DNA from: a virus
DNA: 30,429 bases
IMG/VR virus record: IMGVR_UViG_3300028607_002748
Span: 1 to 30,429 of that record
Strand: one strand, 5' to 3'
A program made the translations under genes and the position numbers. Below the pieces are notes generated by a model. It did not search any database and had not been told where the DNA came from. It saw only the letters and a program-made list of their open reading frames with translations. This document shows, piece after piece, positions 2,869 through 19,348 of this stretch. Numbering within the stretch: position 1 is the first letter of the stretch; each line of letters starts with the position of its first letter.

Positions 2869-2872
2869 CGAT

Positions 2873-5768: not shown

Positions 5769-5800
5769 AAACAACTTGTTTTCTTGTTGGTTTAATTATC
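5769..5800 (-). promoter_or_regulatory. Operator-A promoter of the 5754 gene
   Basis: Perfect palindrome AAACAA-C-TTGTTT at 5769-5781. On the gene strand a GATAAT -10 (5795-5800) lies 13 bp upstream of it, with TTGGAC 16 bp further as a -35. The operator therefore sits in the transcribed leader. Confidence 0.85.
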
Positions 5801-5871
5801 GCTACGCGCATAAGGCGTCCAAGCGTTCTGTTTCGGCAACTGGTGGCCGGCAGGGATTCGGAGGGTTGTTC

Positions 5872-5900
5872 GGTAGCCTGGCGGTAAGAGGTGGGTGTTT
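5872..5900 (+). repeat. Dispersed short repeat (GTAGCCTG...GAGGTGGGT), copy 1
   Basis: The motif GTAGCCTG-N6-AAGAGGTGGGT here recurs with small changes at 8965-8990 and 8995-9023. All copies are in gene-free spacers. Confidence 0.75.
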
Positions 5901-5929
5901 TTAGCCTGCGGGAAACAGGATGGTCATTT

Positions 5930-5958
5930 AAGGCCACCAGCATGGGTGGCCTCGTTTT
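5930..5958. terminator. Hairpin after the 5960 gene
   Basis: Stem AGGCCACC/GGTGGCCT. The T tract is on the plus-strand side; on the minus strand only TTAAAT follows, so leftward termination would be weak. Confidence 0.55.
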
Positions 5959-5959
5959 C

Positions 5960-6241
5960 TTAGTGGAGCAGACCGACGTCGATGGTATCGCCGGAGCCAT
6001 CCACGCGGATCATCAGCATGGCGAAAGCATTTAATGGGTATCCTGCGTGCCAGTCCGGGAAGCGGTCATCGCGCATGAAGTCGGCAATGTCATAAACGCT
6101 GTCCTCAAAGCGGAAGAAGCGGGCATCACATTGTTCGTCCTGTTCAATGTGATCCATTTCCTGCTGCTCTTCCGGCGACAGGTCGAGCCAGGATTCCAGC
6201 CATACGTTTTCAGCTTTAGGGGAGATAGTGAAATCGGTCAT
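5960..6241 (-). CDS. Small acidic protein, operator-A regulon
   Basis: 93 residues from the ATG at 6241, chosen because GGAGG lies eight bases before it; two upstream ATGs (6247, 6256) are worse placed. Strongly acidic (SPEEQQEMDHIEQDEQCDARFFRFED), with aromatic clusters. Not recognised. The charge would suit a DNA-mimic or inhibitor protein, but that is only a guess. It is preceded by an operator-A module with two sites 51 bp apart. Confidence 0.75.
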   Translation of the reverse strand: MTDFTISPKAENVWLESWLDLSPEEQQEMDHIEQDEQCDARFFRFEDSVYDIADFMRDDRFPDWHAGYPLNAFAMLMIRVDGSGDTIDVGLLH

Positions 6242-6260
6242 GTGCATATCCTCCATGCGT

Positions 6261-6324
6261 AAACATCTTGTTTTCTAGTTTGTGTAATTATCGCAGTGTG
6301 GATAAGGCAAAAAACATTTTGTTA
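6261..6324 (-). promoter_or_regulatory. Double operator-A promoter of the 6241 gene
   Basis: Proximal site AAACAT-C-TTGTTT (6261-6273, one mismatch), -10 GATAAT at 6287-6292, distal site AAACAT-T-TTGTTA (6312-6324). The two sites start exactly 51 bp apart. Confidence 0.8.
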
Positions 6325-6333
6325 TCGGGGATA

Positions 6334-6360
6334 AGAAAATGGCGCGGGGTACGCGCCATT
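6334..6360 (-). terminator. Rho-independent terminator of the 6764 gene
   Basis: AATGGCGCG/CGCGCCATT stem; read leftward it is followed by TTTTC. It lies just after the stop codon of the gene at 6369-6764. Confidence 0.8.
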
Positions 6361-6368
6361 GGAAGGGA

Positions 6369-6764
6369 TTATTCAAACACGCTTTCGGGAATAAATTCGT
6401 CTACCATCGCGCTGGAAACGATACGCAGACCGTATTGACCCATCCAGGTGCTGTTAGAGTTCAAATCGGAGGTAAACAGCGTATCTACTCTGGTCATCAG
6501 CTTATCGAACATCGCCTTGTCCGCGGTGCGGAAGTACGCTTCCAGCTTTAGCAGCAGCGGGTCGGTTGCGTTGCTGATGTTCTGATAACCTACGGTGTAT
6601 ACCGCACTTTCACCTTCCCCCTCGCGCACTAAGGTGCTGGTGTGAACCTCCGTTCCGGTAGTGTTGTCACGCAGAACGACGGTCAGTTTGGCAACTTTCT
6701 CGCCTAAGGTGGTTTCGGACGCATAATGTAAATCCAGCACAAGATTTTCGCGTAAAACAGTCAT
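6369..6764 (-). CDS. Unknown 131-residue protein, family-B-type promoter
   Basis: Not recognised. N-terminal half is beta-rich (TVLRENLVLDLHYASETTLGEKVAKLTVVLRDN), the C-terminal half more helical (LLLKLEAYFRTADKAMFDKLMTRVDTLF), ending in an acidic FIPESVFE tail. No signal peptide. GGGAGA precedes the ATG. Unlike its neighbours it has no AAACAA-N-TTGTTT site; instead its promoter overlaps a GGTA-GTAC-TTAC palindrome. It is a single-gene unit with its own terminator. Confidence 0.8.
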   Translation of the reverse strand: MTVLRENLVLDLHYASETTLGEKVAKLTVVLRDNTTGTEVHTSTLVREGEGESAVYTVGYQNISNATDPLLLKLEAYFRTADKAMFDKLMTRVDTLFTSDLNSNSTWMGQYGLRIVSSAMVDEFIPESVFE

Positions 6765-6802
6765 CTTTATCTCCCTTTAGTTGACTAACCTATATTATTG
6801 TC

Positions 6803-6820
6803 ATAGGTATGTACTTACAA
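6803..6820 (-). promoter_or_regulatory. Family-B operator in the promoter of the 6764 gene
   Basis: ATAGGTATGTACTTACAAT is a near match to the GGTAA-N4-TTACC palindrome. On the gene strand TTGTAA (inside the site) and TAATAT 17 bp on form a plausible -35/-10. Confidence 0.55.
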
Positions 6821-6832
6821 TACAGGAGACTA

Positions 6833-6859
6833 AAAAAGCCCCGAAGGATGAACGGGGCT
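6833..6859 (-). terminator. Rho-independent terminator of the 7203 gene
   Basis: AGCCCC/GGGGCT stem; read leftward it is followed by six T residues. Confidence 0.85.
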
Positions 6860-6891
6860 GTCGTAGGGTCGACTAATCGCTTTTGCACATG

Positions 6892-7203
6892 TCAGGCTGT
6901 CGCCAGTAGAGAGGCACGCTGGATTTCTTGCTGGGCTGCTTTGTTCGCCTCCAGTAGCGCCTGTTCCAGCTCTCCTTCCGGCCAGATAATCTGTTTTGCC
7001 ATCCACCCTCTTCCACTCTGGCGACGCACACTCATGACGTAACGCGTGCGGGAACCATTGTCGAACGAGACCAGCGTCTCTTTGAACAGGCGAATGGCAG
7101 TGCCATTGGCGATGATATCGAGCAGGGTCAGTTGGCTCATTGCGGTTGGTTTTTCTTTACGTGGCTGGCCCGCACTCAGTTTGGTGATCATCGCGTTTTT
7201 CAT
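6892..7203 (-). CDS. Unknown 103-residue protein, operator-A regulon
   Basis: Not recognised. Lys/Arg-rich N-terminus (ITKLSAGQPRKEKP), a central part with RYVMSVRRQSGRGWMAKQIIWPEG and a helical C-terminus (LEQALLEANKAAQQEIQRASL). No membrane segment. CGGAG lies seven bases before the ATG. A perfect operator-A palindrome starts 12 bases upstream of the start codon, and the gene has its own strong terminator. An internal ATG after PTA (residue 22) would be a less likely start. Confidence 0.8.
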   Translation of the reverse strand: MKNAMITKLSAGQPRKEKPTAMSQLTLLDIIANGTAIRLFKETLVSFDNGSRTRYVMSVRRQSGRGWMAKQIIWPEGELEQALLEANKAAQQEIQRASLLATA

Positions 7204-7215
7204 AATTCACTCCGT

Positions 7216-7248
7216 AAACAACTTGTTTTCTTATTTGTGTAAATAATA
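7216..7248 (-). promoter_or_regulatory. Operator-A promoter of the 7203 gene
   Basis: Perfect AAACAA-C-TTGTTT at 7216-7228. The -10 on the gene strand is TATTAT (7243-7248); TTGTAG about 15 bp further upstream is a possible -35. Confidence 0.8.
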
Positions 7249-7317
7249 CCAGCGAGAAAACGGCTACAAAGCATAGCGTTACGGCGCTGCGCTGCCCCGG
7301 AGGTTGCAAACAGCAAA

Positions 7318-7337
7318 AAGCCACCGTGCTGGTGGCC
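7318..7337 (-). terminator. Rho-independent terminator of the 7643 gene
   Basis: GCCACC-GTGCT-GGTGGC stem; read leftward followed by TTTTTG. Confidence 0.8.
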
Positions 7338-7343
7338 TCACTC

Positions 7344-7643
7344 TTAATCTTCGTCGTCCGGGAACTCAATGTGTACCGCGTCCACCAGCTCCCGCTGTTC
7401 ATCTTCACTGAGCAGGTGCCAGATATCCTTCCCTTTGGGCGATTCCCCTTCTGCCGGGACGAACGACCATAGCTTGCGGTGCAGTTCCGGCCCTACAGCA
7501 TCCAGACATTCGGCCAGCGAATCCACACTCCATACCTCCACCAGCACAGGCATCTTAATTTCATTCCCCGGGCAATCGTCAGAGGCGCAAACTGTAGCGC
7601 CTTCATACTCGCGGCCACAGTGCTGGCAAATGAAAATGGTCAT
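7344..7643 (-). CDS. Zinc-ribbon-like small protein, operator-A regulon
   Basis: 99 residues from ATG 7643, chosen because SD-like GGAGAT lies eight bases before it. CQHC at 5-8 and CASDDC later (about 18-23) give a CxxC...CxxxxC pattern typical of a small zinc ribbon. The rest is acidic, ending EFPDDED. No enzyme motif is visible. A nucleic-acid- or protein-binding adaptor would fit. The single gene is flanked by an operator-A module upstream and a terminator downstream. Confidence 0.8.
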   Translation of the reverse strand: MTIFICQHCGREYEGATVCASDDCPGNEIKMPVLVEVWSVDSLAECLDAVGPELHRKLWSFVPAEGESPKGKDIWHLLSEDEQRELVDAVHIEFPDDED

Positions 7644-7662
7644 GCGCTTATCTCCGATAAAT

Positions 7663-7694
7663 AAACATGTTGTTTTCTTGTTGTTGTTATTATC
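7663..7694 (-). promoter_or_regulatory. Operator-A promoter of the 7643 gene
   Basis: AAACAT-G-TTGTTT (one mismatch) at 7663-7675. GATAAT -10 at 7689-7694, again 13 bp from the operator; a TTTTTC -35 lies about 17 bp further. Confidence 0.8.
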
Positions 7695-7790
7695 GCAATA
7701 AGAAAGCGGGGAAAAAGTATTCATTAAAGGCTGATGTGTTTGTGTCGATTTATTGCTATGTATGTATCTGGCTAACTCAGAGGGAATGTG

Positions 7791-8033
7791 ATGAGCACTA
7801 ACAACTACACAGACGGTTACTTCAGCATCGACGTCGAGAGAGGCGAACTGCTACATGGCGGTATCTCTGTCGGACGCATCATTTTGACCAACGGTCAGAT
7901 TTATACAGAGCTGGACGACACCAGTTCAGACGCACCTGTCGTCTCCGGCCCCTTCGGGACAAGAGAAGAGGCGCTCGATGATTTGTGGGACAACAGGGAC
8001 GATGCGAATCAGGGCAGTGAGATTTTCGAATAA
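7791..8033 (+). CDS. Small acidic protein, rightward
   Basis: 80 residues from ATG 7791, preceded by GAGGGAA at a good distance. Acidic, beta-rich N-terminal half (YFSIDVERGELLHGGISVGRIILTNGQIY) then a helix (GTREEALDDLWDNRDDANQ). Not recognised. It is one of only two rightward genes in the accessory region and is transcribed away from the operator-A gene at 7643. A TATGTATGTAT stretch at 7757-7767 upstream may hold a promoter or a weak family-B site. Confidence 0.75.
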   Translation: MSTNNYTDGYFSIDVERGELLHGGISVGRIILTNGQIYTELDDTSSDAPVVSGPFGTREEALDDLWDNRDDANQGSEIFE

Positions 8034-8651
8034 GCGTCATCGGCGATTTCGCCACCAAAACCCGTAACCCTTTACACTAGATCTGGCTTCCCGACATGAG
8101 CGTGCGAAGCTGATCTGGTCTCAACGCTTAACTGCGGGATTCACCATTTCCCGCACTCTTCAGGTGAATGAGGAATAAGGCATACTCCCGCAGTCGTCCC
8201 TCTCTCTGTACCGGGATGTACCCGTTCCCCGACCGGCAGCCAGCCTTTTCCCGGTTCGTATAGCGGGATTCCCACCGTTTCCCTGAAAACCTCCAGCCTT
8301 TTCCCTGCGGCGACGCTCCCGTTCCTGAAAAGGGACATGACCTTTTCCCTGGATGGCCCGAAGGCTGACCGAAGGGGTGAAAATGGACGTCACGGGGGAT
8401 GAAAACTATGGCTTGAATTTCTACGGAGGAAGTAGCGATCCCCCTCTTCCCCTTCCCACTTATACCTACCTCTAATTCTCCCTCTTATGGGGGCGTATAC
8501 CTCCCCTCTGATAACGCTCTATACGGCGAGTATTTCTTTGGGTGAAACGGGAGGTTTGTTCTCTCTACCGGCGTATGTGGTTTCGTTCTTCTTGAGGTGG
8601 CTCTTCTCTGTGTTTTCGTCTGGGTCGTTCTCGTCGTTTTGGTGAGTGTTC

Positions 8652-8902
8652 TTCTCCGTGTATGGAGTAATGGCAGGTGCGCTTTTCTCTTCGTTTACGT
8701 GAAATGATGGAAGTGTGGGTAATGGCAGTAGGGCGCTTTTGTTGTTCTCCGCATATGAAGTAATGGCGTTCCCTGCTATTCAGGAATTTGCGTAATCTTT
8801 CGGGGTAATAGTGGGTAAGCGAGATTGCGACGGTTCTGTTCTGGTCTTGGTTTGTCCGGGGTTTCGTTCTGGCTGTTCTTCTCCGTGTATTGGGTAATGG
8901 CG
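8652..8902 (+). repeat. Three copies of a TTCTCCG-N-TAATGGC repeat
   Basis: TTCTCCGTGTATGGAGTAAT, TTCTCCGCATATGAAGTAAT and TTCTCCGTGTATTGGGTAAT (each continuing into GGC) occur at 8653, 8745 and 8879, about 90 and 135 bp apart. Shorter GGGTAATGGC cores occur at 8717 and 9034. In different minus-strand frames the copies encode similar peptides (HYSIHGEE, HYFICGEQ, HYPIHGEE), so the DNA motif, not one protein, is repeated. Confidence 0.7.
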
Positions 8903-8964
8903 TCTCGGGGTTTGCGTGCGCGAGCTGCGTTCTCGATTGCCTGGGAAGATTAGGTGGGTGGTCT

Positions 8965-9023
8965 GTAGCCTGGGGCAAAGAGGTGGGTCTTTCCGGTAGC
9001 CTGACAGGAAGAGGTGGGTGTTT
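8965..9023 (+). repeat. Dispersed short repeat (GTAGCCTG...GAGGTGGGT), copies 2 and 3
   Basis: Two adjacent copies of the motif seen at 5872, separated by a few bases. Confidence 0.7.
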
Positions 9024-9091
9024 CCGGGATTTTGGGTAATGGCGTCTCTGGGTTTCCTGTGGGTGTGGTTAACTTGTTTTCCTGTACCTGA

Positions 9092-9104
9092 AAACAACTT
9101 GTTT
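9092..9104. promoter_or_regulatory. Orphan operator-A palindrome
   Basis: Perfect AAACAA-C-TTGTTT. A half-site GTTAA-C-TTGTTT lies 24 bp to the left (9068-9080), far closer than the 51 bp of other pairs, with no -10 between. No gene follows on either strand. It looks like a promoter deleted between its two operators. Confidence 0.75.
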
Positions 9105-9459
9105 AGATATCCAATACAACGCAACGGGAGCGCTTCTGAGCATGTCTATTTTTGGGTGGTATCACGAGTCGTTTTTGACGTTTTGGTCGCAGGGAGATGG
9201 GTTCTGGTGCGCAGGATTTTGGGTATAAGAGATGGCGTGCGAAAACGTCAACTTTTTAGACCAAATCAGGGGAAATCGTTGACATTTCGTTGATGTGTTA
9301 TTTATTTGTTTTCTTATGAGTGTAATTGACTTAAATGCCTTGTCACGCCTGGGCTGGGGTAGGTTGGAAGGGTGGGGAAAGTGGCGATCAACGGACTCTT
9401 ATAGAAATCCTCAATTTGTGACCGCCAATGTCAATGGATTGATAGTCCTGGCTCAATGT

Positions 9460-9978
9460 CTAATAGACATTCCCATTGAAGTGTTTTTGGGTGGCGGATT
9501 CTTGTCGGGTCCAGTCAGGACGTGCATTCTGGTTTTGACAGTCGTAAAAGCGGAGGATATCCCGCATCTGAAAATCGATGTTGTCCTGTGGCGTAGCATT
9601 AACGAAGGTGTAATCGGAAGTCTTCCCACGAACGAGATTTTGCCGTCCAAGATGAATCAGTGCCCAGTTGTGGAATTGCTCGCGGCTTTCGACCTGTCCA
9701 AATGGCGTGAATCCCCAAGCGCTGAAAAATGCCTGCATGTATTCGTCAGATTTAGTGGTTGGGATTATCGCAAACAAGATCTGCTCTCCCACGCCTTCTA
9801 GGTAGGCTTTTCCAGACAATTGGGTCGCGGTTTTGCCTGAAAGAAGCTCTGCGTTGCAGAGCAGCATGGTATCGCGTCCTGCCGGTGGCGCTGTGCGTAT
9901 CAATTCATCTGTGCTTTCAGCAGCCGCTGCGGAAAACGATATGCCCAACGCGAAAGCACAGGTCAAACGAAAATTCAT
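9460..9978 (-). CDS. Secreted periplasmic protein of unknown function
   Basis: 172 residues. A classic Sec signal peptide (short basic start, hydrophobic core, AAAAES, cleavage near residue 20) predicts a periplasmic product. Two Cys residues in the mature part (CNAELL about 41 and YDCQNQ near 146) may form a disulfide. An alpha/beta character without recognised family. AAGGAGAG lies at ideal distance before the ATG. The promoter region carries a degenerate operator-A site, so membership of the regulon is uncertain. Confidence 0.8.
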   Translation of the reverse strand: MNFRLTCAFALGISFSAAAAESTDELIRTAPPAGRDTMLLCNAELLSGKTATQLSGKAYLEGVGEQILFAIIPTTKSDEYMQAFFSAWGFTPFGQVESREQFHNWALIHLGRQNLVRGKTSDYTFVNATPQDNIDFQMRDILRFYDCQNQNARPDWTRQESATQKHFNGNVY

Positions 9979-10005
9979 TGACTCTCCTTGTTTACTTATC
10001 GGTGT

Positions 10006-10018
10006 TATTAACTTGTTT
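10006..10018 (-). promoter_or_regulatory. Degenerate operator-A half-site upstream of the 9978 gene
   Basis: Only the right half TTGTTT and the following TTCTTAT of the module are kept; the left half is TATTAA. A further half AAACAA lies at 10031. Confidence 0.4.
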
Positions 10019-10061
10019 TCTTATATTCGCAAACAAAACCATAATCCGAACTCACCGGTGC

Positions 10062-10979
10062 TCAGTTCCGGTTGTGACCTATTGAGCGCGAAAGCAGGAT
10101 ACTTTTCCAATGTTTTTCACGCCTGTTGATTTCGTGTTTGTCGCTGTTGTTGTCCATGATCTCCAGAATGGAAAACGTGACGTTTTTGAGCCGTTCCTCG
10201 TCGCAGGTACCGAACGCTTCAATCAGTCCGGCGTTCCCACCGTGTCCCGTCGTAAAGTAGGTCTTCCATCTTCCCCATATTCCGTCTTTGCCGTTAGCCT
10301 GGCCAACATACAGCTTCTCTCCATCGACATCGGTTAGCAGGTAAATGCCTTTGACAATACTCAGCGCTGTTTTCCACGATTTTAGCTCCTGCCGGATGAT
10401 GGCTCCCAGACTGACTCTATCCAGTACCACGTTTTTGTAGCCGGGAAACTCACCAAACGAGAGACAAACAGGGGAGATCTCGACGATTTGCATCGTCCCA
10501 GCTAGCGTCTCACCTTTCAGGATAAAGTTGCGAGGACGAGCCGTGCGAACGTACATACGCCCACGATATTCATCCAGTTCAGTAACAGGGGTCAGTTGAT
10601 AGAGATAGTATGTTTCATTCCGACCTGGGACATAATGAGATGCCGTCAGACTACACCCCTTCTTGATATAGGTCCCGGCATAGAGAAATCGTTCCTTATC
10701 TTCAGTTTGAATGAGTGAGACAACATAAGTTCTATCAAAGCTTTTATGCTTCTGTAGACATTGCCAACTATCAAACGTCTTGTTTACGAACTCCGTTATC
10801 GGGTTTTCTTTATACTCGTTGGTGCTAGCTAAATGAATTTTGCAGTTCTGTGGGGTCAGCGGCGGGTATCGCGACTGAAGGTACTGGAATAGTTCCATGC
10901 ATAAAGTGTCCCTGATTAGATCGACTCTGCCGTCTTGTATCTCACACAGAGAGCCGATCTGTCCACTCGGAACAAGCAA
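10062..10979 (-). CDS. GIY-YIG nuclease family protein with extra N-terminal domain
   Basis: 305 residues from a TTG start placed directly after the TAA of the DUF5983 gene. The C-terminal ~95 residues are a GIY-YIG nuclease: GIY at 211-213, YVG at 224-226, catalytic-type Arg in GRWKTY (237), Glu in NRREKHWK (about 288) and a closing GHN (302-304). Such domains cut one DNA strand at a time through a metal ion. The N-terminal 200 residues are unrecognised and may set target choice. No good Shine-Dalgarno and the non-ATG start imply translational coupling to the upstream gene. Restriction of foreign DNA or a repair role is possible. Confidence 0.8.
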   Translation of the reverse strand: MLVPSGQIGSLCEIQDGRVDLIRDTLCMELFQYLQSRYPPLTPQNCKIHLASTNEYKENPITEFVNKTFDSWQCLQKHKSFDRTYVVSLIQTEDKERFLYAGTYIKKGCSLTASHYVPGRNETYYLYQLTPVTELDEYRGRMYVRTARPRNFILKGETLAGTMQIVEISPVCLSFGEFPGYKNVVLDRVSLGAIIRQELKSWKTALSIVKGIYLLTDVDGEKLYVGQANGKDGIWGRWKTYFTTGHGGNAGLIEAFGTCDEERLKNVTFSILEIMDNNSDKHEINRREKHWKSILLSRSIGHNRN

Positions 10980-11297
10980 TTACCAGTCCCATGCAGGCAG
11001 CCAATCCACCAGCTCGGCGTCGCAATCGAATTGCACCGCGTCAAAGCCGGCATCCAGTATGGCCTGTATGTTGGAGATCGCCTCTTTCGAAATGCCGTAT
11101 TCACTTAGCTCTTCTTTCCAGTCACTGCCACGCATTCCAGCACGAACAATCCAGCCGTACTGTGTACCGTGTACCCAATTCAACCCGCGATCGGTAAGTG
11201 GGTCGAAGCAGGCAATGGGTAGCCGCTCTGAATCCGCTGCCGTTACGTGGGCGGTGCTGATCACTGCCGTTTTGTAGACTTCCGTGAACTTCAACAT
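10980..11297 (-). CDS. DUF5983-family protein, first paralogue
   Basis: 105 residues. Begins LKFTEVYKTAVISTAHVTAADSERLP and has FDPLTDRGLNWVHGTQYGWIVRAG, the pattern I associate with the DUF5983 family found on enterobacterial plasmids and phages; function unknown. It shares about half of its residues with the protein encoded at 14420-14740. The gene opens an operon with the GIY-YIG nuclease and is controlled by a double operator-A promoter. GGAG lies six bases before the ATG. Confidence 0.8.
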   Translation of the reverse strand: MLKFTEVYKTAVISTAHVTAADSERLPIACFDPLTDRGLNWVHGTQYGWIVRAGMRGSDWKEELSEYGISKEAISNIQAILDAGFDAVQFDCDAELVDWLPAWDW

Positions 11298-11308
11298 ACC
11301 AACTCCTT

Positions 11309-11372
11309 AAACAAATTGTTTTCTTATATTCGTTATTATCTCAGATAACAAAAGGCTGAAAACAAAATGTTT
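11309..11372 (-). promoter_or_regulatory. Double operator-A promoter of the DUF5983/GIY-YIG operon
   Basis: Proximal perfect AAACAA-A-TTGTTT (11309-11321), -10 GATAAT (11335-11340), distal AAACAA-A-ATGTTT (11360-11372). Site starts are 51 bp apart and the distal one abuts the TTTTCA -35. This is the clearest example of the module. Confidence 0.9.
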
Positions 11373-11381
11373 AAGGGGTAA

Positions 11382-11648
11382 TTAGGTCAATTTAAAGTCA
11401 TCTATGTCGTCCACGAACTCCATATGTCTGGCTTCAACACTAGACAGTCTGATCAGATATGCAAGCCCGTAACTAAGTGAAGTGGGTTGTTCCAGCACAA
11501 ACTCGAACCCGTTCTCATGCGTTTTACCAAGCCAGAATCCACCGCCGTATTCTTTTTTACGTTGGAAGAAAACGAACTGTCCAGGTATTAAGTACTTGAG
11601 CACTTCTCCCCTGTAGACGATCACATATTTGGAATTTTCTCTGCCCAT
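11382..11648 (-). CDS. SOS-controlled small protein of unknown function
   Basis: 88 residues from ATG 11648 (a GTG three codons earlier is possible). Beta-rich: SKYVIVYRGEVLKYLIPGQFVFFQRKK, then FWLGKTHENGFEFVLEQ, ending in an acidic DDIDDFKLT. It looks like a small SH3- or PH-like barrel but no family is recognised. The promoter carries a near-perfect LexA box 14 bases before the ATG, so it should be silent until DNA damage. On temperate phages LexA-run small genes are often anti-repressors (Tum of 186, for example) or inhibitors of cell division; either is speculative here. Confidence 0.8.
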   Translation of the reverse strand: MGRENSKYVIVYRGEVLKYLIPGQFVFFQRKKEYGGGFWLGKTHENGFEFVLEQPTSLSYGLAYLIRLSSVEARHMEFVDDIDDFKLT

Positions 11649-11662
11649 TTCACACACCCCAA

Positions 11663-11682
11663 TACTGTATGTATAAACAGTA
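11663..11682 (-). promoter_or_regulatory. LexA (SOS) box
   Basis: TACTGTATGTATAAACAGTA matches the E. coli consensus CTG-N10-CAG with TA flanks on both sides. It overlaps a candidate -10 (TATACA) that is preceded at 16 bp by TTGCAT. The box lies immediately upstream of the gene at 11648. Confidence 0.9.
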
Positions 11683-11737
11683 GTATTTTAGATGCAATGA
11701 ATCAACTTTGATGGTTAATTAAATAACTAGGTGGTGA

Positions 11738-11750
11738 AAACAATTTGTTT
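11738..11750 (+). promoter_or_regulatory. Operator-A site of the rightward 11836 gene
   Basis: Perfect AAACAA-T-TTGTTT. Read rightward, TTGTTT within it can serve as a -35, with GTAATT 17 bp on as -10. Here the operator lies at -35 only. Confidence 0.75.
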
Positions 11751-11835
11751 CGGCACTTGAGATTTCGGTAATTGCACATACATGGAAAACGACAACGTTT
11801 GAGACCTGATTTGACCCATGTGAAAGGAGGAAACG

Positions 11836-12039
11836 ATGAAGACCTATGATCGCAACCGTAACGCTATCACTGCCGGCAGCCGGGTGATGGTGGCAACGAA
11901 TGGTGCAACGGGAGTCATCAGGGAAATCTGTGGAGAAGGCAAATCAGAAGAACAATTACGCCGCTCTGACTGCGTGTCTATCGAAGGTGTGGAAGGTCTG
12001 TTCTGCCCAATGGATTTAGTTCGCCTGGGGTTCCATTGA
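11836..12039 (+). CDS. Small SH3-like protein, operator-A regulon
   Basis: 67 residues. Sequence such as GSRVMVATNGATGVIREI...SDCVSIEGVEGLFCPMDLVRL suggests a small beta barrel of the KOW/SH3 sort, but no family is certain. A very strong AAAGGAGG ribosome-binding site precedes the ATG. One of the two rightward genes in the accessory region, facing the LprI-like gene across a shared terminator that also contains an operator-A palindrome. Confidence 0.8.
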   Translation: MKTYDRNRNAITAGSRVMVATNGATGVIREICGEGKSEEQLRRSDCVSIEGVEGLFCPMDLVRLGFH

Positions 12040-12053
12040 TTTCACCATCAATA

Positions 12054-12066
12054 AAACAAATTGTTT
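12054..12066. promoter_or_regulatory. Operator-A palindrome at a convergent terminator
   Basis: Perfect AAACAA-A-TTGTTT in the 55-bp gap between two converging genes, overlapping by one base the following terminator stem. No promoter for either gene can lie here. Confidence 0.8.
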
Positions 12067-12088
12067 AAGGCCACAATTAGTGGCCTTA
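12066..12088. terminator. Bidirectional hairpin between converging genes
   Basis: TAAGGCCAC-AATTA-GTGGCCTTA, a 9-bp perfect stem shared by both genes. T tracts are poor. Confidence 0.7.
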
Positions 12089-12094
12089 TCTGTC

Positions 12095-12793: not shown

Positions 12794-12869
12794 ATTCACT
12801 CCATAAATACAAAAGCGCCTGACTATATCACTTAACCAACTGCTTCTCTCGACTGATCGTCAACCACTT

Positions 12870-13382
12870 TCAGTCCATCACGTACCGCTCTGACATACGC
12901 TCAAGGTATTGGTATGCTGGATTTGGCACCGTTGGCCAGCCTGCATACCACGGTTCATCGCCAAACAAACTCAGCAGTTCGTTACCTACTCCGAAACAGC
13001 AGCAACTCTCTTTTACGTCATCAGCGTTTTCAGCTTCGTCCCACATATTGCGGGCCTGTTCTGCGTCGATTTCTCTCTCCCTGCGCAACTTTATGATTTC
13101 GGACTTTACGAAAAGCAGGTTTGCGTCGTTGTCATCGTCGACCGTACTCAGCAATTGAGGGTCGAGGCAACCAATCAAATAATCGTTGCTCACTCTCTTA
13201 ATAAACGTCTGCACGTCATCCCCGCCCATCGCGAACCAGGCAGCAGTCCATGCTTTCCCATAGCAGGTAATGGTGACTCTTCCCTTGCCCGGCTCGTAGT
13301 TTTCAATCATTACGCGTACCGGGTCGAGACGCTCCAGATCCGTCAGCACAAAGGAAAGAACATCTATTTTTTCGACCTTCAT
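12870..13382 (-). CDS. Phage-type protein of unknown function, cysteine-rich tail
   Basis: 170 residues from ATG 13382, which overlaps the TGA of the gene before it (ATGA). The N-terminal half (LDPVRVMIENYEPGKGRVTITCYGKAWTAAWFAMGG) resembles a conserved lambdoid-prophage protein family of unknown function. A run of three Cys (ESCCCFGVGNELL) comes near residue 130 and the protein ends aromatic-rich. Coupled translation with the upstream 84-residue gene makes a two-gene unit. Confidence 0.75.
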   Translation of the reverse strand: MKVEKIDVLSFVLTDLERLDPVRVMIENYEPGKGRVTITCYGKAWTAAWFAMGGDDVQTFIKRVSNDYLIGCLDPQLLSTVDDDNDANLLFVKSEIIKLRREREIDAEQARNMWDEAENADDVKESCCCFGVGNELLSLFGDEPWYAGWPTVPNPAYQYLERMSERYVMD

Positions 13383-13633
13383 GCAGCCTCCCACGCGTTC
13401 CAGATCAGCGCTTTGTGTTTTTCATAACGTTTGGTGTGTACCGGTTGCAGACTGGCAATGCCTTTCGTCACCATCGCCCGGGCGTTTATCAGCAACGAAT
13501 GCTCTATGCCTTTTTTCTCCAGGTACTCGACAACACCGGCATCGGCACCAATCTCCTTGCCGTCAAAGAGTACGGCCAGCATCAGCTCTTTCTCTGCGAG
13601 GTAGATGGCTGAAAACTCAGGGTCGCGACTCAC
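13379..13633 (-). CDS. Small unknown protein, GTG start
   Basis: 84 residues. A GTG is the only reasonable start. Mostly helical (FSAIYLAEKELMLAVLFDG, then VEYLEKKGIEHSLLINARAMVTKGIASLQP) with a basic tail (HTKRYEKHKALIWNAWEAA). Not recognised. A GATAAT upstream may be its -10, resembling the operator-A promoters but with no palindrome. Its stop overlaps the start of the next gene. Ribosome-binding site is poor. Confidence 0.65.
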   Translation of the reverse strand: MSRDPEFSAIYLAEKELMLAVLFDGKEIGADAGVVEYLEKKGIEHSLLINARAMVTKGIASLQPVHTKRYEKHKALIWNAWEAA

Positions 13634-14209
13634 GATATGGGATTATCTCTTTATCGTTTCTCTCGTGTGCCTGGGGAAAGCTGGATGGTGTTTTCGTGCC
13701 TGTTGGGGTTTGGCGGGTGTCCCAATGCCTGTGATAAGTCGAGTGGTGTTCTTGGGAATTTTTGAGCCTCGCTTCCTTTGGTTGGTGGTATGCCGGTTCC
13801 GCTCTTTCGGTTATGATGGAAGGTTTTGCCTGGATGTGTTGTAGGTGGCTCTTCTCTCGATTTTCGAGTTGATTGGCTTATCCTCTCAAACGCTCTGTAA
13901 CGCTCTCTAAGCGACTCTGATTTGTGGTGATAGTTGGTGTTGGTTTTCCTGTTTAATCTAAACCTGTGCGTTCTGGCGTAGCGTTGAGCGGGTGTAAGAG
14001 TGACTATGCTCAAATGTCAAAAAAATGAGGGAAAAAGTAGTTTTGGTTTGACGTTACGTTGATCTGCAAACAAGTTGTTTTCTTATGGGTGTTATTGCCT
14101 TGTTTACAGCGGTGTTGCGGGTTGGTGAGTGGTTGATTAAGCGGGAAAGTGATGATCAACCTCTCCTTATAGAAACTGCGAGAGGTTGACTGGTTACGTC
14201 AGTGAAAGG
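13634..14209. other. Gene-poor spacer paralogous to the 8.6-9.4 kb spacer
   Basis: No convincing gene; one open minus-strand frame (13651-14013, TTG start) gives a low-complexity Arg/Thr/Pro/His product. G+T-rich on the plus strand, with GAGGTGGCTCTTCTCT-like sequence also at 8595. From 14000 to 14185 it parallels 9240-9420: a GTTGA.ATT.CGTTGAT stretch, an operator-A-type sequence with TTCTTATG.GTGT, then GGGAAAGTG..GATCAAC and CTTATAGAAA. Confidence 0.55.
14068..14080. promoter_or_regulatory. Orphan operator-A palindrome in the spacer
   Basis: Perfect AAACAA-G-TTGTTT followed by TTCTTATGGGTGTTATT, the normal leftward promoter context, but no good gene follows leftward. Confidence 0.75.
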
Positions 14210-14410
14210 TCAACGATTTAACGCCCTCTTTTTAAGGGTCTGCCATTTTTGCCATTCTGAAATGATATTGCCCTCTGAAGTAACCTTTCCACTTATTGTG
14301 GTGGGAGGGTTGGCGATAATACTCTCCAAAGATTCTCCCGCTTCAAGACGTGCGTGTATTTTAAAGTCCGCAGCCTTGGGATTAGTCGGCGCTTTATCTC
14401 CGTTGCTCAT
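14210..14410 (-). CDS. Small basic protein in the second DUF5983 operon
   Basis: 66 residues (SNGDKAPTNPKAADFKIHARLEAGESLESIIANPP...WQKWQTLKKRALNR). Basic and probably helical at the end, with no family recognised. It starts nine bases after the DUF5983 stop, with AGAGAGGAAG as ribosome-binding site, so it is co-transcribed. It takes the place that the GIY-YIG nuclease has in the first DUF5983 operon. Confidence 0.75.
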   Translation of the reverse strand: MSNGDKAPTNPKAADFKIHARLEAGESLESIIANPPTTISGKVTSEGNIISEWQKWQTLKKRALNR

Positions 14411-14419
14411 ACTTCCTCT

Positions 14420-14740
14420 CTACCATTCCCAGATTTTTAACCCGTCAATCGTATCTGCGTCTCGGTCGAAATGCACCACCTCAAAGCCGGCACTCAGGAC
14501 TTTCTCGATGTTCTCGATAGTCGACCAGCTAATGCCTTCCTCGCGCAAAGACTCCTTCCATGACTCGGCACGAAGACCGGCACGGATAATCCAGCCATAC
14601 TCAGTACCGTGAATCCAGTTATAGCCACGGTCAGTGATTGGGTCAAAGCTGATTTGAGGCAGTATCTCGGAGTCCGCTTGAGTAACGTGGGCGGTGCTGA
14701 TAACGGCGACTTTGTATGATTCAGTAATATTCAGGCTCAT
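14420..14740 (-). CDS. DUF5983-family protein, second paralogue
   Basis: 106 residues, SLNITESYKVAVISTAHVTQADSEILP ... FDPITDRGYNWIHGTEYGWIIRAGLRAESWKESLREEGIS. It aligns end to end without gaps worth noting with the protein at 10980-11297, including the shared Trp-rich C-terminus (KIWEW / PAWDW). The promoter belongs to the operator-A family with a perfect distal site and a decayed proximal one. Function unknown; the duplication with different downstream partners suggests a modular pair. Confidence 0.8.
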   Translation of the reverse strand: MSLNITESYKVAVISTAHVTQADSEILPQISFDPITDRGYNWIHGTEYGWIIRAGLRAESWKESLREEGISWSTIENIEKVLSAGFEVVHFDRDADTIDGLKIWEW

Positions 14741-14747
14741 GTGTTTT

Positions 14748-14811
14748 CTCTTTGTTGTTTTCTTAATGGTTTTATTATCTCAACTTGCTATAGGCAGAAA
14801 ACAAGTTGTTT
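14748..14811 (-). promoter_or_regulatory. Operator-A promoter of the second DUF5983 gene
   Basis: Distal perfect AAACAA-G-TTGTTT (14799-14811), TTTTCT -35, 16-bp spacer, GATAAT -10 (14774-14779), proximal half-site TTGTTT at 14755-14760. Alignment of the decayed proximal site keeps the 51-bp spacing. The distal site touches the stop codon of the gene upstream. Confidence 0.85.
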
Positions 14812-15038
14812 TAGGCTTTGTTGAACTCTTTCAACCACTCGGCGGCTGCTTCGTGAACCATGCGTCCTTTTGCGATGGTCATCTCCGCCTGTGGCACTGT
14901 GATGTCGTAATCCTCTGCGAACGCAGCGACGGAAAGGTAGTTGTTCATCCAGTCACGGTAAAGTTCAGCGAGGTTCTCTGAGGTTACTTTTTCTGGGTGG
15001 GTCAAGCTGACTGTCAGGTATGTGTTAGAAGGGATCAT
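14811..15038 (-). CDS. Small unknown protein, operator-A regulon
   Basis: 75 residues from ATG 15038, selected for its AAAGGAG ribosome-binding site. Helical and acidic in the middle (NLAELYRDWMNNYLSVAAFAEDYDITVPQAEMTIAKGRMVHEAAAEWLKEF). It resembles a small helix-turn-helix-like phage protein (AEDYDITVPQAEMTIAKGR), but that is only a visual impression. Single gene with a dedicated operator-A promoter; its stop lies at the operator of the next gene. Confidence 0.75.
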   Translation of the reverse strand: MIPSNTYLTVSLTHPEKVTSENLAELYRDWMNNYLSVAAFAEDYDITVPQAEMTIAKGRMVHEAAAEWLKEFNKA

Positions 15039-15040
15039 GC

Positions 15041-15104
15041 TGGGTTCTCCTTTTCTGGTTGGCGTTATTATCACAAACCAGAAAAGGTAGAAAACAAATT
15101 GTTT
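15041..15104 (-). promoter_or_regulatory. Operator-A promoter of the 15038 gene
   Basis: Distal perfect AAACAA-A-TTGTTT (15092-15104), TTTTCT, 16 bp, GATAAT (15067-15072). The proximal position (15041-15053) is decayed to TCCTTT but keeps the 51-bp phase. Only the -35-side operator remains intact. Confidence 0.85.
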
Positions 15105-15111
15105 AAGGTGA

Positions 15112-15726
15112 TTACTTAATGCTGTCCTCGTAGTTTTTTGCGTCTCTGGTTATTCCTACCACTATCAACTTCTCAGGGCCGTTAGCGTAGATGCCCTTAG
15201 CCTTAACCAGCATATATACCTCATCTACAGTGCCGTAAATTTCGTAATAGTCCATAGGGCAGTGGTTCTGTTCTAACCCTGCTTCTGAATTGTACGCTTT
15301 ACAGAAGCCTGGACTTGACTCGAAAGCGGCTTTATCTCTCACGCCAGCGCGAGTCGCCAGAGCCGGGCCATATTTACTTTTCAGCACGTCCTGCACCGTC
15401 TTCATCTTATCCACACTCACATTGACGAAGGAGTACGCAATTTTCCCGTCTAATGTGCTAAAGAAGATGACTAAATCTGCGTCTTTCTCTTCCTTGAGGA
15501 CTTTGCCTACGTATTCTGATGGTGCGTATAGATACTGAGAAAAACGATCCTTGGTATTGACTGGTTTGTCCGTTGCCTTCCCGTCCTGATCAACCATCGT
15601 ATAACCTGCCATGTCCACCTGAGATGGTGTTTTGTTGAGCACCATCTCATATGGTTTAACGGCAACATCATTACAACCTGAAGCCAGAAAAAGTATTGCA
15701 ACGATGCCAATGTTTTTAATTTTCAT
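15112..15726 (-). CDS. Lipoprotein of unknown function
   Basis: 204 residues. KIKNIGIVAILFLASGCNDV is a signal-peptidase-II signal with lipobox LASGC, so the mature protein is lipidated at Cys18 or so. Asn-Asp follow the Cys; Asp at +3 gives only a weak hint of inner-membrane retention. The mature part is alpha/beta (DADLVIFFSTLDGKIAYSFVNVSVDKMKTVQDVLKSKYGPALATR) with two further Cys. It is the third gene after the DUF4942 methylase and a 59-residue gene. Ribosome-binding site AGAGA is weak. Confidence 0.8.
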   Translation of the reverse strand: MKIKNIGIVAILFLASGCNDVAVKPYEMVLNKTPSQVDMAGYTMVDQDGKATDKPVNTKDRFSQYLYAPSEYVGKVLKEEKDADLVIFFSTLDGKIAYSFVNVSVDKMKTVQDVLKSKYGPALATRAGVRDKAAFESSPGFCKAYNSEAGLEQNHCPMDYYEIYGTVDEVYMLVKAKGIYANGPEKLIVVGITRDAKNYEDSIK

Positions 15727-15767
15727 TTCAATCTCTGATTAGTGGATTTTTTACAAGCCGTTTCATT

Positions 15768-15947
15768 CTAAACAATACGAAAGTGAAGATCTTCAATCAG
15801 TAAACCACCGGCCCGCATGAGCGTTCGCTTGCCCATATACTGATTTCTGACTTTATCCCAATCGGGCCAGTCGGTTCGCTCCGTTGACCATACGCCCCGA
15901 TAGTCTGTGTGGATTGCGTTGTACTCCTTCCGCGTTAACTCAATCAT
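15768..15947 (-). CDS. 59-residue protein between methylase and lipoprotein genes
   Basis: Encodes 59 residues beginning MIELTRKEYNAIHTDYRGVW and ending IEDLHFRIV, with RTDWPDWDKVRNQYMGKRTLM between. AGAGG lies six bases before the ATG, which is nine bases after the methylase stop, so it is translated from the methylase message. Aromatic- and charge-rich, soluble; not recognised. The layout suggests an accessory protein of the methylase. Confidence 0.75.
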   Translation of the reverse strand: MIELTRKEYNAIHTDYRGVWSTERTDWPDWDKVRNQYMGKRTLMRAGGLLIEDLHFRIV

Positions 15948-15955
15948 CTGCGCCT

Positions 15956-17629
15956 CTATGCTCTTTTGAAAACGAATACTGCGACTGTGATGCCGGTGTC
16001 CTCAAACTCACCTGAGAACTCACGACCTGATTTAGCGCAAACGAACTCTTTGCCTATCCATTCTTCTGGCTTGTACCCGGCTGGCAGGACTGCCGCCATC
16101 ATCCCATCTTCGCTGAGATGATTTAGCGCCGTGAGCGTGTGCTCTTTTGCTCGACCCTCCGAATACGGCGGATTGATTGCGATCTTGTCGTAGTCATAAG
16201 GCAGCTGCTTCGACCAGTCGATAAAGTCTTTGTTATGAACGTCGTACCCCTTTGCAGACAGGATGTCACAAAACAGTGGCGATATTTCCACGCAGGTCAC
16301 GTTCTCCGGCGTCGCATTGAGGAATGCCAGCAAATCACCACGACCCGCGGATGGTTCCAGCACTCGGTCAGTTGGTGTGCATTTCAGGATCTGCGCGACG
16401 TACTGAGCAATGGATGCCGGTGTTGGGTAGAACTGGTGTGACTTAACCTCTGGAATGAGGCCCATGGACACGATGCTGTCGAATGTTGCGGTTGGCTCAT
16501 ACGGGAACAGCCAACTGCCTCGCTCCTTCACGCCACCGATAAATCTCAGCGTGCGCTCAAGGTCTTCTATTTGAGCCTTTTGCAGTGACGAGTCGGGGAA
16601 GTACCACGTATTGTCTTTACTATGGCGGCGATCGCGAATAACACCTCTGGTTCTTTCAGATACGGTCTTCTGGATGTAACCGAACTCTTTTGGCGCCTTT
16701 GTCGTTGGCGCCTTGCGACATGGAGCTGGAATCGCTGCGGGCATACTGTAGGCCAGCACTTCGTTTAACTTCCACGCGACGTCGGGGTGGATCTCAAAAT
16801 GGGCGTTACCGTTTTTGAAAATCTTCACGCGCAGTAAGTTACCGTCGATGTTCATCCATTCACCGGTTTCACAGTTATGCGTTCTGTATGCGGCTGACAG
16901 TGCCTCGGCGCAGGGATTGATGGTGATAAACTCTTTGTGCGCAAAGAAGTGCAGTAGTACGCGCAGGTCGTCGATGATGTCCGACTTGTGGTAATTAACC
17001 GAGACGCTCCGGTTCCAGAAATCGGTAATGCAGTTCGCGATGATCAGCTTTTCACTGAAGCCGTATGTTTTGTTGGTTTTGTGCGTAGGACTCAGTGCCT
17101 TGAACAAGCCATATACGCGCTCGGCCAGATACTTATGACGGTCATTCAGTAGCGAGATCATCGTCGGGATAACTGTTTCGGCTGTGAACTCTGGCACGCC
17201 AACGAACTCGTCAACGCGGCGCTCAAATCCGCCAAAATCTTTTTTAACGGTCTTCTGGACGCCTAGCGTGAACTGGGTACGCCACTGGTCGCGGCGCTCA
17301 GCTGGCATGATCAGCAGAACGTTTGTCATATCCGTGACCTTCTTCCAGTACTCGGCCCAGATATTCTGTTTCACCCATTCCAGGTCGACTTTGTCCAGCC
17401 AGGCTCTGTTAAAGCGTGTGCGCTCGTCATCTGGCCGGTGGTTCAGTCGCAGCAGGCGGTTAATCATGTTGTGGCGTTCGTCGCCATAAACGAAGTCGTG
17501 AACCTGATGCATGAAGGCGATCTCTTTCTCGCACTCGGCCACAATTTCGTGGATGACGTTCATTTCCTGCCGGTAGTCGATATCAGTGTTTGGGGTGATA
17601 GCGTCAATGATGGAAAGGGCTGTATTCAT
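15956..17629 (-). CDS. DUF4942-type DNA adenine methyltransferase
   Basis: 557 residues from ATG 17629. The C-terminal third is an N6-adenine methylase: SAM-binding motif I LEPSAGRGD at about 424-432 and catalytic NPPY at 486-489. The region before it (INPCAEAL...LLRVKIFKNGNAHFEIHPDVAWKLNEVLA) fits the DUF4942 family found on enterobacterial plasmids and genomic islands. The N-terminal ~250 residues are helical and may read the target. No restriction gene is beside it, so this is an orphan methylase that could protect the replicon from host restriction. It heads a three-gene operon under a perfect operator-A palindrome. Confidence 0.85.
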   Translation of the reverse strand: MNTALSIIDAITPNTDIDYRQEMNVIHEIVAECEKEIAFMHQVHDFVYGDERHNMINRLLRLNHRPDDERTRFNRAWLDKVDLEWVKQNIWAEYWKKVTDMTNVLLIMPAERRDQWRTQFTLGVQKTVKKDFGGFERRVDEFVGVPEFTAETVIPTMISLLNDRHKYLAERVYGLFKALSPTHKTNKTYGFSEKLIIANCITDFWNRSVSVNYHKSDIIDDLRVLLHFFAHKEFITINPCAEALSAAYRTHNCETGEWMNIDGNLLRVKIFKNGNAHFEIHPDVAWKLNEVLAYSMPAAIPAPCRKAPTTKAPKEFGYIQKTVSERTRGVIRDRRHSKDNTWYFPDSSLQKAQIEDLERTLRFIGGVKERGSWLFPYEPTATFDSIVSMGLIPEVKSHQFYPTPASIAQYVAQILKCTPTDRVLEPSAGRGDLLAFLNATPENVTCVEISPLFCDILSAKGYDVHNKDFIDWSKQLPYDYDKIAINPPYSEGRAKEHTLTALNHLSEDGMMAAVLPAGYKPEEWIGKEFVCAKSGREFSGEFEDTGITVAVFVFKRA

Positions 17630-17641
17630 AATTGCACCATT

Positions 17642-17670
17642 AAACAAATTGTTTTCTTGTTGGTGTTATC
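17642..17670 (-). promoter_or_regulatory. Operator-A promoter of the methylase operon
   Basis: Perfect AAACAA-A-TTGTTT (17642-17654) 12 bases before the ATG. GATAAC (17665-17670) is the likely -10, three bases closer to the operator than in the other promoters. Confidence 0.8.
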
Positions 17671-17731
17671 TTCCCAAAGTTGAAAAGGCGTAAAAGCAGC
17701 ATTCACAGGCGTTGCAGCTGATTTAAGGCGT

Positions 17732-17754
17732 AAAAAGGGGGCTTTCGCCCCCTG
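17732..17754 (-). terminator. Rho-independent terminator of the 18342 gene
   Basis: AGGGGGC-TTTC-GCCCCCT stem; leftward it is followed by TTTTTACGCC. Confidence 0.9.
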
Positions 17755-17769
17755 TCGGCAGGTGAGAAA

Positions 17770-18342
17770 TTAGTGGTGTACGTGCTGCGTTTTGTGCGGC
17801 TGTTTGTTCAGGTCGTGGCGATGGGTCAGCTCGCGCATCATGTCTTCAAGACGGCTCTTGGTGTCGTCAAGCTGGTCGGCCATTGCCCCCAGCAGCTGGC
17901 GAACGGCCATCGGATCGTCGCTGTTCAGCTCAGGCATTTTGAACCCAGCCTGGGAAGACATCAGTTTGAAGGCGGCCAGCAACATCGCCAGAGAAGACTT
18001 CAGCCCGGCGATTTCACGATCTTTGCTGGCGTTGGTTTCATCTGCCTTGACTGAATCCGGTGAGCACTTCGGCTTGCTTACCATTTCCAGCGTTGCCTGA
18101 AGTTTGTCGGCGCGTTCTTTCTCTTCCAGATACGCTTCGCCGAAATGACGCGCCAGCATCACAATTTCAATCGGATCATCAATCATGCTTGAGAACTTGA
18201 GAACGCTGAAAAGGCGGTCGATAGGGGAGGCGTCGTCTTCGTGACCAACCACAAGACCCATGATCTCAACCAGTTCGGCCGCACCAACTTTTTTAATCAC
18301 GCTTTCAACTTTGGCATTAGTTTTTTTGCATTTTTCGCACAT
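17770..18342 (-). CDS. Coiled-coil protein with N-terminal CxxC knuckle
   Basis: 190 residues from ATG 18342. CEKCKK at 2-7 is a lone CxxC, perhaps half of a zinc site in a dimer. After it come a helical region (DRLFSVLKFSSMIDDPIEIVMLARHFGEAYLEEKERADKLQATLEMV) and a long C-terminal coiled coil (DQLDDTKSRLEDMMRELTHRH), ending in a His-rich tail. Not recognised; no enzyme motif. Start chosen at MCEKC rather than the ATG nine codons upstream, because AAGGAAAA lies just before it. Single gene, operator-A promoter, strong terminator. Confidence 0.8.
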   Translation of the reverse strand: MCEKCKKTNAKVESVIKKVGAAELVEIMGLVVGHEDDASPIDRLFSVLKFSSMIDDPIEIVMLARHFGEAYLEEKERADKLQATLEMVSKPKCSPDSVKADETNASKDREIAGLKSSLAMLLAAFKLMSSQAGFKMPELNSDDPMAVRQLLGAMADQLDDTKSRLEDMMRELTHRHDLNKQPHKTQHVHH

Positions 18343-18363
18343 GTGTTTTTTCCTTATGTTTTT

Positions 18364-18392
18364 AAACAAGTTGTTTTCTCGATTGCGTTATT
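18364..18392 (-). promoter_or_regulatory. Operator-A promoter of the 18342 gene
   Basis: Perfect AAACAA-G-TTGTTT (18364-18376); AATAAC (18387-18392) is the probable -10. A shorter leader than usual follows. Confidence 0.75.
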
Positions 18393-18450
18393 GTGGCGTG
18401 ACTGAAAAGGTGGGCAAACGCTACGTAAAGGCGGACACCCACACTGACGG

Positions 18451-19266
18451 TTAATGAAGACGTTTGGATTCCTTCATTTCACGTTCGACATGCTCACGAC
18501 ACGGCTCATACTCAATGGCGCTGGCGGTAATTTTCCCGGCAGCAATTAGCTTCACGGCAGCAAAGCAAAGTCCTTTAAAGGTGAACTTGGCCTGGTTGCG
18601 TCCGTTTCCGATGACAACGTTTTTGCCATATCCGCGGTCAATGAAGATCTTGAGGAACTGGCGGTTAACAGTGATGTATTTGCGCTTAACGTACACATCA
18701 CCCAGCGAGTCCATCAGCGCACCCAGAACAGCCCCGGACGTTCCGAGAATGCGACCAGCTTCATTCAGCCCATAAAGCTCATCAGCAGTGCCGCAAATGG
18801 TGTCCATGAGAATGGCTTTTGGTTTTGCGTTAGATAATGCAACGCCTAACGCCTCGTTCTCTTTCTCCAGACGCTCGTTTTCCTCGACCTGGTGTAACAA
18901 ATGAACCAGAGCTTCTTTATAGGTACGTGGAATAGCAGGCGTTCCGCGGTCGGCAAACATGGACTCAAGCTCTCTCCACCGATCAACAAGGCGTGCGGTA
19001 AATTCAGGAGAAAGCTGCGCCACGACAACGATGCTGTCGCGTTTACCCTGTTCGGCTTCGAACAAGTAAAACGTAGCCGGACGCCCGGCAGTGGGCTTTT
19101 CCACCATTGGTGGAAAAGTAATAACGCCGGATTTAGCGAGTCTTTCAATGGTGCGTTTTACGCTGTCATGGCGACTGCCGACCATTTCGGCGATCTCCTG
19201 ACTGGTCATCGATGGTTTGGCGTGTAAGCCTGTAGTGGTGGGAGTGTGTGCGGTTGCCTCAAACAT
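18451..19266 (-). CDS. Rha-family phage regulatory protein / antirepressor
   Basis: 271 residues. The N-terminal ~110 residues match the Rha (pRha) domain: MTSQEIAEMVGSRHDSVKRTIERLAKSGVI, then VVAQLSPEFTARLVDRWRELE. A coiled coil follows (HQVEENERLEKENEALGVAL, about 123-142), then a C-terminal part like the antirepressor KilAC/ANT type (YGLNEAGRILGTS...YVKRKYITVNRQFLKIFIDRGYG). Such proteins relieve or modulate phage repression. GGAGA lies before the ATG. The gene sits behind an operator-A palindrome and a terminator-like leader hairpin, so its own expression appears to be both repressed and attenuated. Confidence 0.85.
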   Translation of the reverse strand: MFEATAHTPTTTGLHAKPSMTSQEIAEMVGSRHDSVKRTIERLAKSGVITFPPMVEKPTAGRPATFYLFEAEQGKRDSIVVVAQLSPEFTARLVDRWRELESMFADRGTPAIPRTYKEALVHLLHQVEENERLEKENEALGVALSNAKPKAILMDTICGTADELYGLNEAGRILGTSGAVLGALMDSLGDVYVKRKYITVNRQFLKIFIDRGYGKNVVIGNGRNQAKFTFKGLCFAAVKLIAAGKITASAIEYEPCREHVEREMKESKRLH

Positions 19267-19284
19267 ACATTCTCCATTCAGTGT

Positions 19285-19312
19285 AAAAAGGGCCGTCAGT
19301 GGCCCTTGTTGT
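19285..19312 (-). terminator. Terminator-like hairpin in the leader of the antirepressor gene
   Basis: AAGGGCC-ACTGAC-GGCCCTT followed by TTTAC, between the operator and the start codon on the gene strand. It may end the gene at 19375 or attenuate the antirepressor. The sequence after it, ACACTGAATGGA, recurs in the leader of the 20067 gene. Confidence 0.75.
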
Positions 19313-19335
19313 TAACTCTCATTGGTTAATTGGCT

Positions 19336-19348
19336 AAACAATTTGTTT
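19336..19348 (-). promoter_or_regulatory. Operator-A site upstream of the antirepressor gene
   Basis: Perfect AAACAA-T-TTGTTT, the last copy of the family in the window. TTGTTT inside it can be a -35 with AGTTAA about 18 bp downstream as -10. Confidence 0.75.

Follow-up and report, generated by a model that had tools for sequence, protein, structure and literature searches.

Dispersed 13-bp palindromes as candidate operators of a parA-linked regulator in SSU5-type phage-plasmids

What is the role of a short palindrome that recurs many times in a single piece of viral DNA, and which protein reads it? The DNA in question (the window, i.e. the whole stretch of 30,429 nucleotides of IMG/VR virus record IMGVR_UViG_3300028607_002748) comes from an SSU5-type phage-plasmid, of which it covers 30 kb, and the palindrome, here called motif A, is AAACAA-N-TTGTTT, 13 bp long and of 6-1-6 layout. 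The window is nearly colinear, in reversed orientation, with ~73-103 kb of Salmonella phage SSU5 and likewise with many Enterobacteriaceae plasmids. The colinear homology to SSU5 (94.9% identity over 64% of the queried stretch) places it in the SSU5 supergroup, and since it corresponds to only a part of SSU5, less than one third of a phage-plasmid of ~105 kb is visible. Phage-plasmids of the SSU5 type, a common viral family with a plasmid lifestyle in gut bacteria, account for hundreds of sequenced plasmids of Klebsiella, Escherichia, Enterobacter and Salmonella; resistance genes have been found on some phage-plasmids (PMC9600943). On balance we favour the view that motif A serves as operator for a regulator encoded by the phage-plasmid itself, most likely SSU5_034, which would double as partition protein and global repressor.

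Perfect copies of motif A occur 12 times in the window, all at 5.8-19.3 kb, whereas a Markov model predicts 0.01. If up to two mismatches are allowed, 18 matches are observed vs 2.7 expected, and none of 100 shuffles of the window reached 18. An earlier note, made from the sequence alone, had listed 12 perfect and four near sites (6261, 7663 and 11360 with one mismatch, 6312 with two), and each was recovered where it had been placed. Two further matches with two mismatches, at 10773 and 20666, look like noise, with position weight matrix scores of 11.5 and 10.3; real sites score at least 14.7 and the window background at most 11.5. The sites are given below, type 1 denoting a site downstream of a -10 hexamer and type 2 a site upstream of it, over the -35 region (ORF, open reading frame).

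5769-5781, perfect; type 1, after GATAAT; ahead of minus-strand ORF 5272-5754
6261-6273, one mismatch; type 1; ahead of minus-strand ORF 5960-6256
6312-6324, two mismatches, matrix score 14.7; over the -35 region, 51 bp upstream partner of 6261
7216-7228, perfect; type 1; ahead of minus-strand ORF 6892-7203 (SSU5_113 family)
7663-7675, one mismatch; type 1; ahead of a minus-strand zinc-ribbon-like gene inside ORF 7344-7724
9092-9104, perfect; without clear promoter; kept in SSU5 (90740)
11309-11321, perfect; type 1; ahead of the minus-strand DUF5983 gene 10980-11297
11360-11372, one mismatch; upstream partner of 11309 at a distance of 51 bp
11738-11750, perfect; between minus-strand ORF 11382-11657 and the plus-strand ydfZ-like gene 11836-12039
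12054-12066, perfect; between the convergent ydfZ-like and LprI-like genes, without evident promoter role
14068-14080, perfect; type 1 geometry with a weak -10 hexamer, without clear gene
14799-14811, perfect; type 2, over the -35 region; second DUF5983 gene 14420-14740, minus strand
15092-15104, perfect; type 2; ahead of minus-strand ORF 14811-15074
17642-17654, perfect; type 1; ahead of the DUF4942/methylase gene, minus-strand ORF 15956-17647
18364-18376, perfect; type 1; ahead of a minus-strand gene inside ORF 17770-18369
19336-19348, perfect; upstream of the Rha/Ant-type antirepressor gene 18451-19266, minus strand

DUF5983 is thus present in two copies on the minus strand, each with a motif-A promoter ahead of it.

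The association with GATAAT-type -10 hexamers that the earlier note had described is real and positional, most perfect window sites lying where an operator of a sigma-70 promoter would lie. Across 112 sites from six genomes the distance between hexamer and motif A has two sharp peaks: in one the site follows the end of the hexamer by 13 bp and so lies just past the transcription start, in the other it precedes the start of the hexamer by 19 bp and so covers the -35 region. Dual-site promoters with a spacing of 51 bp are found at 6261/6312 and 11309/11360; a clear promoter of the two-peak kind was not seen at window sites 9092, 11738, 12054 and 19336. At either position a bound protein could occlude or block RNA polymerase. 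We infer repression via motif A from this geometry and from the published transcriptome of an LF82 lysogen, whose list of genes at the 5-fold level contains none directly behind a motif-A site (PMC9928086 Table 1). The existence of sites upstream of the -10 hexamer favours binding to DNA rather than to RNA. Action at the RNA level in the 5' leader was rejected, given these type 2 sites and a 13-mer hairpin that would be weak at best.

Is motif A then the mark of an accessory island, silenced by one repressor, as had been proposed? In SSU5 it occurs 21 times, and 21 of 21 sites are intergenic, with intergenic DNA making up 11.6% of the genome. The promoters include those of the terminase small subunit (terS), parA, dnaB, a cobT-like gene and nrdB, and sites also lie at 56, 81, 30449, 34385, 42729, 56848 and 70219. 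In the E. coli LF82 relative motif A occupies orthologous promoters, 16 perfect copies are present in Klebsiella AR_0096, and all 18 larger IMG/VR records tested carry 6-15, the reversed control being found in none. Relatives overall have roughly 6-16 perfect copies apiece, and every SSU5-supergroup record tested was positive. Because motif A stands at core promoters in complete relatives, the regulon is element-wide; it spans ~20 promoters, and the reading as an accessory island is too narrow. The absence of copies outside 5.7-19.4 kb accordingly holds for the window and fails for the element, in view of the seven further SSU5 positions. Of the proposed repressor, a single DNA-binding regulator with many operator-positioned sites stands, but not its restriction to an island, since terS, parA, dnaB, cobT and nrdB are included. 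The open-access literature subset searched yielded no earlier account of motif A.

The scan of genome collections covered three hosts, and no perfect copy was found outside phage-plasmid contigs in a 5.5-Mb Kluyvera and a 5.1-Mb Buttiauxella assembly. Conservation in relatives, with no sites in the rest of these two host genomes, thus came out as the earlier note had anticipated. Motif A was not found in relatives from Moellerella, Pectobacterium, Acinetobacter and Xenorhabdus. Positive elements hence come from Enterobacteriaceae and negative ones from other families, a pattern that a host regulator of Enterobacteriaceae binding motif A would produce; such a regulator should, however, have host targets too, in which case sites would be expected elsewhere in the Kluyvera and Buttiauxella assemblies, and we regard it as most improbable.

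The candidate regulator was singled out by screening the genes common to motif-A elements. SSU5_033 is a ParA of 221 aa (MipZ/AAA_31/PHROG ParA) with no match to an N-terminal helix-turn-helix (HTH), and SSU5_034/CYRAN_29 (PHROG 5111), a protein of 96-119 aa, follows or abuts parA. With a short ParA and a small partner gene right behind it, the pair is laid out like a type Ib (RHH, ribbon-helix-helix) plasmid partition module. Of 52 viral loci, 51 have a perfect AAACAAGTTGTTT ahead of the parA-034 operon and the last is truncated by a contig end; in divergent lineages the site is perfect or has one mismatch. Among 797 plasmids with a match to SSU5_034, 735 reach an identity of 95% or more. Across motif-A-positive lineages, with overall identity of only ~50%, a basic, GRP-containing arm (PQGRPTRGK), an SRTMS strand and an FTRSDVIRAAI helix are constant; all three have changed jointly in each of nine motif-A-negative relatives, where the right half of the parA site differs as well. 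RHH profiles match members of the family below cut-off, Pfam RHH_1 in 6 of 12 (best E 0.028) and NCBIfam aCcr1 in 7 of 12 (best E 1.6e-4), so that SSU5_034 appears weakly RHH-like. CYRAN_29 (L008:29975-30334) is annotated as a RelE/ParE toxin and looks instead like a ParA partner protein; under the toxin label, the LF82 lysogen transcriptome lists it at 9x above the background of the prophage (PMC9928086 Table 1).

We propose that this small RHH-like protein, encoded directly after parA, binds the ~20 dispersed motif-A sites (AAACAANTTGTTT), over the -35 region or just past the start site, two dimers presumably occupying each 13-bp 6-1-6 palindrome. Occupied motif-A sites would leave the promoters of early lytic and accessory genes silent or weakly active during plasmid life, and the parA operon itself would be held down via its own site. 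SSU5_034 may also serve as the centromere-binding partition protein.

SopB of phage N15 silences lytic genes. N15 resembles the SSU5 type in being a phage-plasmid with several separate centromere sites, IR1-4, but has only these four, read by an HTH-type ParB, in contrast to ~20 short sites here (PMC7205306). KorB of RK2 is likewise a partition protein that represses throughout its plasmid, by way of dispersed palindromic operators; it is an HTH ParB-CTPase that acts at a distance with KorA, whereas the candidate here is small and RHH-like and its sites lie inside promoters (PMC11790492). The nearest published parallel would be archaeal SegB, the RHH partner of the ParA-family protein SegA of Sulfolobales, which binds scattered 13-bp 6-1-6 palindromes, one of them ahead of segA (PMC12284271). 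It differs in belonging to an archaeal chromosome, in a repression role that is not established and in its site, TCTAGA S TCTAGA; no sequence homology is claimed. The SegB precedent, the invariant site ahead of parA and the concentration of motif-A sites on a single arm of the element would also suit a mainly centromeric (parS) function with little effect on transcription. The fixed -10 spacing and the intergenic position of all 21 SSU5 sites point to transcription control instead, which makes a mainly centromeric role very unlikely. In pSM19035, the RHH partition protein omega (ParB) again has sites that overlap several promoters, and it regulates genes for partition and for copy number (PMC9499535), but it reads arrays of 7-10 heptads at the copS, delta and omega promoters, whereas single palindromes at ~20 promoters are found here.

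This difference is one of several points that weigh against SSU5_034 as the regulator. The positive and negative lineages are separate clades, and in a genome-wide comparison 12 other families differ between them as strongly or more so, so that covariation is confounded by phylogeny; covariation alone therefore cannot name the regulator. The AlphaFold monomer, an extended segment followed by helices, has low confidence (predicted local distance difference test score, pLDDT, 64), and a fold search with this model gave no match. Upstream of parA no centromere repeat array, a further feature of type Ib modules, was seen, only the single 13-bp palindrome, and a de novo search of motif-A-negative relatives revealed no clear dispersed substitute motif. 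Finally, the binder could be a different protein of the phage-plasmid, most plausibly PHROG 1513; the other candidates are PHROG 1466, an FljA-like protein, the winged-helix PHROG 900 and PHROG 4054. Three of these five are encoded in the window:

3723-4373, PHROG 1513
2107-2385, PHROG 1466, RHH-like
2837-3400, FljA-like

Most of these proteins are kept across motif-A elements and several are DNA-binding-like. However, the putative DNA-facing strand of PHROG 1466 varies while the motif is constant, the likely recognition helix of PHROG 900 is the same in motif-A-negative Moellerella, PHROG 4054 (SSU5_046) was not found in every motif-A-positive genome, and the known target of FljA, the Salmonella fliC leaders, lacks motif A. 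None of the candidates has a motif-A site ahead of its own gene in SSU5, and we consider it unlikely, if plausible, that one of them is the regulator. The FljA-like gene of the window (2837-3400, plus strand; Flag1_repress, PF03614) is present in 769 plasmid records. The HicB-like SSU5_054/CYRAN_50 was rejected, its own promoter having a different palindrome (GTTGACANNTGTCAAC in Cyrano), as were the P1 Cra-like SSU5_068 and SSU5_113/117, which by inspection are not DNA-binding.

C1 of phage P1 is a phage-plasmid repressor with many dispersed operators, its site being asymmetric and 17 bp long. Could motif A belong to a comparable network, as the operator of the integrase-linked XRE-type HTH immunity repressor (CYRAN_45 family)? 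CYRAN_45 is annotated as putative repressor and expressed 10x above background in the lysogen (PMC9928086). The gene occurs in almost every plasmid member, but it was not detected in SSU5, which was isolated as a phage; its recognition-helix region differs between motif-A-positive and -negative lineages. An operator at the repressor's own gene, as with C1, is nevertheless missing, since promoters of the CYRAN_45 family never have motif A and carry another dispersed palindrome, GGTAAGNNCTTACC or variants. This second palindrome (TAAGTA-N-TACTTA / GGTAAGTACTTACC) is mostly intergenic across motif-A elements and stands directly ahead of the integrase-adjacent HTH gene in Cyrano, pHCM2, pKpn and E. 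coli PI6. Its positions in the window are as follows:

485, 20199, 23711 and 24768, second palindrome of TAAGTA/TAGGTA/GGTAAG...CTTACC type

The Acinetobacter phage-plasmid NZ_CP155456.1 (L170-L175) has, in the same role, a different dispersed palindrome of TCAGTCAGTACTGACTGA type, with ~18 copies, some adjoining the HTH homologue, so that the CYRAN_45 family tracks the second motif class; in Moellerella the HTH gene and the second motif are kept and motif A is absent. As second-class palindromes adjoin HTH genes, the HTH gene was matched to this class, which fits the integrase-linked immunity repressor better than motif A does. Unlike in P1, the immunity-type HTH gene thus goes with a second palindrome, and its control of motif A seems rather improbable. 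Both this gene and the ParA partner map to parts of the element that the window does not reach, and the earlier note, which had recognised no repressor gene in the window, is right as far as tested. In the LF82 lysogen, CYRAN_43 (L008:40268-40822), encoded next to the integrase, is reported at 723x above the background of the prophage (PMC9928086 Table 1).

Returning to SSU5_034 as the preferred reader of motif A, we tentatively suggest, with somewhat less confidence than its identification as regulator, that in the plasmid state a partition protein acts as a second repressor, controlling ~20 promoters of lytic and accessory genes beside the operators of the HTH immunity repressor, and that segregation and phage silencing form one circuit. 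The whole resembles a previously unlabelled two-layer operator network, nearer to KorB, pSM19035 omega and archaeal SegB than to an island silencer. In the open-access subset no description of lytic gene silencing in plasmid-state SSU5-type phage-plasmids was found. Partition and silencing may be coupled in these elements, and now that the sites are listed, a regulator is proposed and a second class of operators is described, lysogeny control in the group can be tested directly.

Two further genes of the window match entries of PADLOC:

20545-23013, minus strand, TIR_2 domain protein with a strong TIR-NLR match (E 8e-166)
10062-10979, minus strand, GIY-YIG protein with an UzuA match (E 1e-58)

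By its sequence match, the TIR_2 gene is likely an anti-phage defence gene aboard the phage-plasmid.

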